Assembly (NCBI GenBank): GCA_916610825.1
Contig: OU744452.1
Location: 14,302,110 to 14,366,109 of the forward strand
From: Haliclystus octoradiatus
Lineage: Eukaryota; Cnidaria; Staurozoa; Stauromedusae; Haliclystidae
Reading direction: 5' to 3'
DNA length: 64,000 bases
Shown: positions 35,901 through 38,900 of the stretch, piece after piece
Layout: each line of letters starts with the position of its first letter
How positions within the stretch are numbered: position 1 is the first letter of the stretch
The notes under the pieces: model-generated
Seen by the model: only the letters and a program-made list of their open reading frames with translations
The model's database searches: none
What the model was told of the DNA's origin: nothing
Translations under genes and position numbers: made by a program

Positions 35901-38900
35901 ATGCTTGTAACAAATGTTGTTCAGGATGACCTTCTGTTTGAATAATGTAGCGCATCTGAATAAATTCAAAACGTACATAGTAAATTGCAAACCGTTTATC
36001 AATCAAATATCCAGTAAATTAATAGGGTTGTCGTTGAGCAATAAAAGGAGAATTTCATTTTGATAACACATTTATGTAATTAAAGTACGCATAACTACGG
36101 TCTTACAAAACGGTATAGTGTATATATTGGTCTAATATGCCTAAAATAGTGTGTGTCTTAATAGCACGTGCAAAATAATTTAAATTTTACTTTTCTTCAA
36201 CACAACAGTATTGTTTGAAATTTTGCGATTATTGAATTACCTTGCATTCATAGATGTTATTAAATAACAACTGTTATTATTATCAAACAATTTTATGCCC
36301 ACGATGCCGCTATGATTACTTATTTTCACTTTGCAGATTATTCCATGCCCACAAGATTTCGAACGTGAAACGTCATACTGGGCATGCGCTAAACCCACCT
36401 TGACGCATCCCCTGTATTGTATTACACGTTCGAAATTGTTGAATTACAATGAATTAATTACAACATCAGTCCCTTGGCAGGAACGAAACACCAGCGAAAC
36501 ACGTGCCAGAGTCAGATCAGCCTCTCGACAATGAATTAAACATTAAATCATGGTTGAATTTTAGTTGTTGATATTTTAAATACGTTCATTTTTGCAATTC
36601 TATAACATTAAGTAAAGTAGTAATTGAGACGACGTCGCCCTACCGAAGGCGCCTGTATAACTCTCTGATAAACAGAGGAGTAGCTCTTTATTACGTATAT
36701 AGTTTCCTTTGTAATTTCGTTCTTCCGATAAATTTAGTAGACGTTTAAATTAGATTTTATATAAATATTCATGTACAGTTTTCAATTCCCTGTTTTTTTT
36801 TACATTGCCTGAAGATGATTCAAGCTTGAATTGAAACTGTTGCGCCAATTACTGTTTGATTCTTATCGCATATACGTTATACAATCATGAAGTTTATGTC
36901 ACGTAAACCTTTACAATGAAATATATTTTTATTTTAACATCAACATTCGAATATAATACAATAATAATAATTGTAATTTTATCATATAATATGAGGTATG
37001 TATGTGAATGTTTGTCAAAACAGAGCATATATATATATATATCTATTATAGATATAAAATAAGAAAAGAGACGTTTTCTCCGTTACTCGAAGTTTCGCGC
37101 TGTAGCGCTCCTCAGACGGTTTCATTCATATGAATAAAACCGTCTGAGGAGCGCTACAGCGCGAAACTTCGAGTAACGGAGAAAACGTCTCTTTTCTTAT
37201 TTTATATCTATACAGCTCTGCTTACCGGTATTGAGCACTATATTGATGTTTTGCTCTTAATAAATAAATTTATTTATTTATTAAATCAACATTATTATTA
37301 TTATTATTATATATATATTATATATATATATAAAATTGAAACAAAGATGGAAACACGGAAAAGACTTCTGCATCATCATTGTTTGAATTCATATTGTGAT
37401 TTTATCATTTTTGTTTTTACCTGGTCGTATTCACTAGGACCTGGAAACAACGGCCAACCAAGAAATAATTCTGCAGCAACACAACCCAATGACCACATAT
37501 CAATCGATTCATTGAAAGGCAAACCAAGAATGATTTCTGGTGCTCTATAAATATAATAATACTACATAATATTAGATATTATCTAATAGCAAAAAATAGT
37601 GCTCGATATCATTTGACAGAGCTAAATATAATAGAAGGAGTCAAAGACTACACATTCATAATTGTTACTAATAGTTTCATGCTTACGCAATCATCAGACA
37701 AATGAACTACAATCTTGTTAAACATTAACGCAACCGTTTTAAGATTTTAGTTTATTTGTCTGGTGATTGCGTAAGCATGAAACTATTATGAATGTGTAGT
37801 CTTTGACTCCTTTTATTATATTTTATTATAATATAATACTTCATATATATAAATCAGAGTGGTAGTACTTGATCATTTTTCAGGATATTTTATATTTCCG
37901 TCAAATTTCATAAAATATTTCACATTTCATTCCAAATATCGACAAATATTTTAAAATTTGAAAAAGTGATCCATTTTCATAATTCTGAAAACAATCTCAA
38001 AATATAAGAGCACGCCCTCAAAATTGACCATATTTCATATACGGGCCTTATTAATTAAAAACATATTGTAACAATATAGCAAACCATTGCTATTCAACAA
38101 TAATCAACGGAAACGTAATATGCATGATTAGTGAATATAATAAATACGAGGACGTTGCATGACTTATTTTAAAACTGCAAATCAAAGATTGTATATAAAT
38201 TTAAGTTCGCTCAGCTTTTTACTCTTATAACACAGTTGAAGGGATTTAAAGAAGATTAAAGTCGGATAGGAGACAGCAACAACAACAAGAAAGCTGTTTT
38301 GTGATGCGAAAATTCAACACAGGCAAAGTAAATTTTTTACCAAAATGTGAAAAATGTAAATTTGATTAGACTAAAAGTGTCATGTTGGCATCATCAAGTT
38401 GGTAAATAAAAGGAGCGGAAAATAGAAAGCGCCAATTCTGTCAGAAAGTCAACCTTGATAACACAAGAAAGTTTGAGCGGGACAACTGGTAAAAAAACTT
38501 CAGAACAAAACAAAAAGATAGAACTGCCCTCATTAAAACTGAAGGGATGTTTGCCAAACTGTTTAAACAACAGCGTCAGCGGGAGAAAAGTACTGAAAGG
38601 AACAAGCGGTCTTGTGAAAGCTAGCAGCTTTTTCTCACGCTGTTAAAACGTAATGCTGAAGGTAAAAATGCTCGTGAAAGTAAAAACTTAAAATGAAATA
38701 ATAGCAAGTTTTACACGCGCAATGTTTATTTTTATTTGATGAAAGAGTTTAATCACAGTCAAAACGATATGATGTCTCATAATAATAATTGCAGCTGGTT
38801 CTTCTAGTTTCTAATTTTTTGCTTTTTTATGGGTCAAAATAATTTTACAAAATATATATTCTTACAAATATAAATGTTGAGACGACGGAAGGAAACGCAA

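Follow-up and report, generated by a model that had tools for sequence, protein, structure and literature searches.

Many head-to-head insertions of a Penelope-like element, including a hammerhead-bearing palindrome, in the genome of Haliclystus octoradiatus

Results

A palindrome with one tail

The window analysed here, a stretch of 64,000 nucleotides from Haliclystus octoradiatus, contains a 166-bp palindrome at 37047-37212, made of two 83-nt arms (37047-37129 and 37130-37212) that are 99% complementary and abut without a spacer. An earlier sequence-only reading had described it with one mismatch per arm; there is one mismatched pair in all. That reading also gave the palindrome a dedicated tail ending at 37242. 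The tail is real and ends one base earlier: CAGCTCTG..ATTGAGCACTAT, with the full string CAGCTCTGCTTACCGGTATTGAGCACTAT, occupies 37213-37241 on the plus strand and continues into ATT/AT repeats. The features of the region are as follows; arm positions are numbered backwards from the tail, PLE stands for Penelope-like element, HHR for hammerhead motif and R1 for a covariance model described below.

37027..37046, no strand: TA-rich flank adjoining the tailless arm (target or junction)
37047..37129, minus: tailless arm, in which the PLE pseudo-LTR leader (-83 to -1, counted from the tail) is inverted
37078..37121, minus: minimal type I hammerhead motif (model R1, 52.9 bits)
37130..37212, plus: tailed arm, formed by the pseudo-LTR leader of the PLE from -83 to -1
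37138..37181, plus: minimal type I hammerhead motif (model R1, 52.9 bits), predicted cleavage after 37175
37213..37302, plus: PLE tail, with a conserved hairpin CAGCTCTG..ATTGAGCACT (37213-37239) and then an AT-rich part running into ATT/AT repeats
37420..37543, minus: host exon, homeodomain-interacting protein kinase (HIPK)-like by translation, between the first two insertions
37598..37823, minus: second head-to-head PLE insertion (family C), HHRs at 37660-37703 (minus) and 37754-37793 (plus)
37598..37623, minus: single tail of the family C insertion
51240..51410, plus: third head-to-head PLE insertion (family G), HHRs at 51247-51290 (minus) and 51305-51347 (plus)
51384..51410, plus: single tail of the family G insertion

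All three hammerhead pairs found in the window (37078-37181, 37660-37793 and 51247-51347) carry a tail on one side only, as judged by motif and by eye. The 124-bp HIPK-like exon, whose closest 11 homologues are 69-83% identical, has head-to-head insertions of two different families, within about 200 bp on its one flank and within 60 bp on its other. Elsewhere the window holds tandem repeats at 9733-10820 and 60990-62002 (units of 76 bp and about 160 bp), TAT/ATA trinucleotide repeats of more than 200 bp at 5675-5889 and 29559-29842, and a 271-bp inverted pair (43375-43645 and 62143-62413, 88% complementary, 18.5 kb apart) that is probably two copies of one dispersed repeat.

A hammerhead motif on each strand

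The plus-strand motif at 37144-37175 consists of CTGAGGA, GCGC, TACA, GCGC, GAAA, CTTCGAG and TA, together with CCGT/ACGG, and a mirror copy lies on the minus strand; the conserved core CUGANGA..GAAA..UH is present with three stems. A general pattern, CTGANGAN{8,18}GAAACNNNNAGT, matched the window 4 times, whereas 100 shuffled versions gave 0.00 on average. The pattern CTGANGAN{8,16}GAAACTNNNAGT has 4,957 matches in the 262-Mb genome (2,429 and 2,528 on the two strands), as compared to 6 for the reversed control. These minimal motifs belong to many families and are a high load for a genome of this size, some kilobases containing several (for example C1:3018919-3021037).

The sequence-only reading had called for a covariance-model search. 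The curated Rfam models gave nothing on the window at the gathering threshold, with no hammerhead up to E=10, and the Rfam hammerhead models did not match three other loci either; this was treated as a limit of the models and not as a defining feature of the ribozyme. Sub-threshold Rfam matches to miRNAs and sRNAs were set aside, as they fit a long hairpin of any kind. The genome-derived model R1, by contrast, which was built from 25 hammerheads of other families in the same genome with the window's family left out, found both arms at 52.9 bits each (E=3.8e-12), although this is not a remote test, one included family resembling the window's family in sequence. R1 also matches 37660-37703, which is one of the sequences it was built from.

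Covariation was seen in stems I and II of the 25 sequences. The alignment contains 39 double-sided changes as compared to 13.2 ± 3.1 when shuffled, and its covariation score is 0.388 against 0.201 ± 0.017 for shuffles and at most 0.127 with the partners slid; two of the five covariation measures were not above shuffles (double-change pairs, 7 against 6.0; further pair types, 12 against 14.7). The first pair of stem II is non-standard in 20 of 25 sequences, mostly T.T in the alignment; a U.U mismatch at this place has been reported for the axolotl HHR_Amex2 (PMC7229834). Folding a single arm by itself, another check that had been proposed, did not return the hammerhead as the minimum-energy structure (-12.0 against -7.5 kcal/mol). 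The earlier claim of a complete hammerhead motif on each strand is nevertheless strongly supported by the pattern counts, the covariation and the R1 scores, and self-cleavage is predicted.

Stem III of these motifs comprises 3 bp and a further pair, x-y, formed across a single base, the loop reading CTxNyAG. Among 39 distinct strings (one from the window family and 38 from 55 of the 100 motifs listed), 38 have a standard pair at x and y (TA, CG, AT or TG), against a shuffle mean of 20.6, and so do 24 of 25 sequences of the 25-motif alignment (A2); the distinct strings are related to each other and do not count as independent events. A single base separates x from y, too little for the two to pair inside one hairpin. 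Two copies of ACTxNyAGT, on the other hand, are complementary and able to pair mutually. Stem III therefore probably pairs between two RNAs, and its covariation supports a dimeric hammerhead. Lunse et al. 2017 reportedly described, to judge by the title, a dimeric hammerhead in PLE-associated variants, and minimal type I hammerheads of PLEs and Terminons are said to be the subject of both that work and Cervera and de la Pena 2014. The Haliclystus motifs share with those hammerheads, so far as described, the core sequence and a very short stem III, features of ribozymes thought to act as dimers; a possible difference is the stem III described above, with its 3 bp and single-base-spanning x-y pair, which covaries in many families.

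The arms and tail are pseudo-LTRs of a Penelope-like element

An exact 36-nt core occurs 153 times in the genome (control 0). At one locus, L040, two direct copies of hammerhead plus tail lie 2,551 bp apart with a 728-codon open frame (stop to stop) between them, and an inverted arm is also present, so that the pseudo-LTR (pLTR) is found in direct and inverted orientation. The frame contains a YRDDG reverse transcriptase (RT) motif and, at residue 617 near its C-terminus, NYIG. Pfam recognised neither RT nor GIY-YIG in this frame, and gave nothing useful on two other frames and five homologues except GIY-YIG in one of them, the Solemya protein P0001 (1e-5), which is 47% identical to the frame and aligned through its C-terminal part. 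A search of the PDB by sequence returned a single chance-level match (E 0.82). Among 7,998 scored candidate proteins, 2,327 match the frame at E <= 0.001. An AlphaFold2 model of a 64%-identical homologue, P0002 (31 sequences, pLDDT 88), has as its top PDB match the telomerase TERT 3du5 (E=5e-8, with a low TM of 0.31-0.36), other RTs and RdRps following close behind, and its C-terminal part has the order strand-strand-helix-helix-strand-helix. The L040 element is a Penelope-like element with a telomerase-like RT and a putative GIY-YIG-like endonuclease, and arm plus tail is its pseudo-LTR. The connection to Penelope-like elements suggested by the sequence-only reading was thus correct.

The tail pattern, which that reading had proposed to search for, occurs 799 times in the genome (387 and 412 on the two strands; control 0). 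It describes a small hairpin with a GCTC/GAGC outer stem and a covarying inner stem: 75 of 111 cells as compared to 56.3 ± 4.2, for 37 distinct strings among the 100 matches listed. The hairpin of the window copy, taken alone, is no stabler than shuffles (z -0.83). The tail hairpin may be an RNA element recognised by the PLE protein.

Head-to-head pairs carry exactly one tail

Junctions were counted by searching 72 of 79 loci (the other 7 repeat the same places) with the L040 unit, which gave 143 pieces of at least 88% identity and at least 30 nt; a head-to-head junction was defined by at most 120 nt between arms. The sample is enriched for short palindromes, since L001-L030 were found with the window's own palindrome. 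There are 50 junctions of the window's family, the palindrome at 37047-37212 included: 42 join a tailed to a tailless arm, none joins two tailed arms, 1 is tailless on both sides and 7 remained unclassed, one of their pieces ending elsewhere. Exactly one tail is therefore carried by 42 of 43 classifiable junctions, and the sole exception, which has no full tail on either arm, has 13 nt of tail on one of them. It is clear from this census that the arrangement which the sequence-only reading did not recognise belongs to a large set of head-to-head PLE insertions in the Haliclystus genome; moreover, inverted pLTRs with one optional tail are known from the rotifer elements described in PMC3846280.

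The outer end of the tailless arm is fixed: in the 42 pairs it falls at -1 in 38, at -2 in 2, and at +1 and +11 in 1 each. Genome-wide, 258 exact arm ends (reversed control 1) continue into the tail in 128 cases, into TATATA in 83 and otherwise in 47, so that about half are tailed, as one tail per pair requires. Independent dealing of tails at that frequency would give only about half mixed pairs.

Similar results were obtained with other hammerhead families at the sampled loci, where 8 of 10 pairs have exactly one tail and none has two; this count leaves out two pairs near a locus edge and drops L055 (9 of 11 before), a relative of the window's family already among the 42. The two remaining pairs (L021 and L022) have no tail by motif; in L022 the arms come from two different families, so that it is perhaps no true pair. 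Neighbours within 150 bp, among the first 100 hammerheads listed, are head-to-head in 14 cases, tail-to-tail in 1 and on the same strand in none. Head-to-tail tandem hammerheads, as in metazoan retrozymes, are thus absent among these neighbours. At C2:4687841-4688144 (L053) a tailless plus-strand arm precedes a head-to-head pair, three PLE arms lying side by side, apparently as nested insertions in the same TA repeat.

In 37 of 42 pairs the 30 nt outside the tailless arm contain four TA units, as compared to 412 of 18,000 random stretches (18 loci), and TA4 or ATT3 lies beyond the tailed arm in 34 of 42; such flanking repeats could also be made at insertion. The abundance of TA repeats next to tailless arms might suggest that each pair arose by two independent insertions, head to head in the same repeat. 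The arms, however, abut or are separated by a short filler, a TA repeat being typically absent from the junction, and none of the 43 classifiable pairs is two-tailed; the one-tail rule disfavours this origin, which we consider highly improbable.

Arm lengths and apices

The 5' ends of the 84 arms lie at -92..-80 in 54 cases, further out in 17 and nearer in 13; only 1 of 84 falls within -41..-33, where templates ending at the hammerhead cleavage site (-38/-37) would place it. A longer copy has a TATA-like TATATATC some 33 nt upstream from -85 by manual count, and -85 may be a transcription start. The two arms of a pair differ by more than 10 nt in 17 of 42 pairs, the tailless arm being the longer in 12 and the tailed in 5, so that arms are unequal in either direction and their lengths look independent. 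Between them, the apices show overlaps of up to 7 nt or filler of up to 74 nt, and several copies repeat end sequence.

Palindromes are prone to misassembly, and hairpins could in principle have produced the pairs as artefacts. Differing arm lengths of up to over a kilobase, one-sided tails and different flanks all speak against this, and with 50 family junctions of differing apices and flanks in the assembly, an artefact peculiar to 37047-37242 is unlikely; for the pairs as a whole we give an artefact next to no credence.

Alternatively, the palindrome might be a dedicated element that replicates itself and moves as a unit, or a sense/antisense ribozyme switch as envisaged in the sequence-only reading. 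The same arms and one apex are common to many copies, and the palindrome at 37047-37212 is predicted to form, as a single RNA, a long hairpin (-148.6 kcal/mol, z -27). Such a hairpin is, however, expected of any palindrome, and the arms grade into copies that reach far into the PLE ORF. Furthermore, the apex varies from copy to copy, which argues against a conserved palindromic device and leaves the switch unsupported. This origin is accordingly quite improbable.

A further possibility, proposed for such palindromes by Arkhipova 2013 (PMC3846280) from palindromes at the inverted junctions of rotifer Penelopes, is self-priming: a tailed cDNA (or an antisense template) would snap back near its 5' end and copy itself. 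The other target end could then be joined through TATA microhomology, which is our addition, to give a tailless arm. Consistent with this, the commonest apex, TTCATATGAA, is self-complementary, 24 of the 42 pairs have both arm ends within -92..-80, and minor alleles are common to both arms in some pairs (-315C in 2, -628T in 1 and -21G in 4). Self-priming predicts, however, that the tailless arm lies within the tailed one, and yet it is the tailless arm that is longer in most of the unequal pairs; examples such as -1251 against -646, or -84 against +8, would fit only if later deletions had cut the tailed arm. Self-priming by itself also gives no reason to stop exactly before the tail. We therefore regard it as unlikely, while taking it seriously. 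In other pairs the arms differ, at -22 in 3 pairs, at -371 in 2 and at -5 in 8. Position -5 is next to the TA junction, and there the tailless arm departs in 7 of 8 pairs, as though the target had supplied the terminal bases of that arm. With alleles partly shared and partly differing, the data do not discriminate between one and two source RNAs.

Discussion

The observations are, in our view, probably best explained by insertion of the PLE 5' leader as head-to-head reverse transcripts primed by both cut strands. The template would be the pseudo-LTR leader, consisting of an RNA start (near -85), the hammerhead and the tail. The putative GIY-YIG endonuclease would cleave a TA-rich target on both strands. 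One of the ends so made would prime reverse transcription in the ATT/AT-rich part of the template RNA, past the tail, and the other, at the same time and on a second RNA, at UAUA just before the tail. Each cDNA would extend over some 85 nt, one of them also over the tail, through the uncleaved hammerhead as far as the RNA 5' end; joining of their ends, head to head, would then create the apex. Some considerations count against priming by both strands: target-site duplications are not established, the flanks being mostly TA repeats, and a symmetric product that later lost sequence at its apex could also have unequal arms.

This scheme of two-strand priming has a close parallel in vitro. The PLE protein of Anolis studied by Frangieh 2024 (PMC11167929) is described as cutting and extending both strands at AT-rich DNA, with RT starting at two internal sites that bound the tail and without a need for hammerhead cleavage. 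The pairs counted here fit this both-strand cutting and extension, each cut end priming its own transcript. As described there, the Poseidon element (PAc) of Anolis resembles the Haliclystus element in its AT-rich target and in having the tail as the segment between two RT starts, to which the tail of the window palindrome corresponds. In PAc, as in Haliclystus, the hammerhead lies at the pLTR-ORF junction, and uncleaved RNA is the dominant template, as it probably is here. The two differ in that PAc is an in vitro system and that a one-tail-per-pair rule is absent from the main text of PMC11167929.

The individual components are already described for PLEs, namely hammerheads, inverted pLTRs, one optional tail and palindromic junctions. 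The endonuclease-containing elements Pen2a and Pen3 of the rotifer Adineta vaga have inverted pLTRs, one optional tail and palindromic junctions (PMC3846280), and, as described in that source, share with the Haliclystus element head-to-head pLTRs, junction palindromes, AT-rich targets and an ORF with RT and (putatively so in Haliclystus) GIY-YIG. The Adineta tail is 31 bp and optional on one pLTR, whereas that of Haliclystus is longer, with about 90 nt leading up to and into the ATT repeats; further, Haliclystus has dozens of leader-only pairs in one family, with arms unequal in either direction. The word hammerhead does not occur in the text of PMC3846280 (term count 0). Metazoan retrozymes, as presented in PMC7229834, are similar in being small non-autonomous repeats with type I hammerheads and a U.U at the base of stem II; they are, however, tandem repeats that give circular RNA, whereas close pairs here are head to head. 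A count of the one-tail rule or of unequal arm ends was not found in the open-access PMC literature searched.

If two RNAs were present at once, the hammerhead could be mainly a dimerisation device, its self-complementary stem III (ACTxNyAGT) holding two template RNAs together, of which the protein would copy one from each cut strand, with a fixed division of labour between priming before and beyond the tail; head-to-head palindromes would then be the normal direct product, and hammerhead cleavage would not be needed for templating. This is a tentative proposal which we judge rather unlikely as it stands.

PLEs have been described as a third class of eukaryotic retroelements, with a transposition mechanism that is little known (PMC11167929), and the role of their hammerheads has been called a mystery (PMC7761336). 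The palindrome in the window sharpens the question of how PLEs integrate, and its relatives give unusually clear evidence on insertion. With its thousands of hammerhead motifs and many short head-to-head inserts, the Haliclystus genome makes both PLE transposition and the role of the hammerhead countable: one tail per pair, a fixed tailless end, cDNA lengths that are unequal in either direction, RNA ends that lie upstream of the hammerhead, and, in stem III, an x-y pair that makes sense only between molecules.
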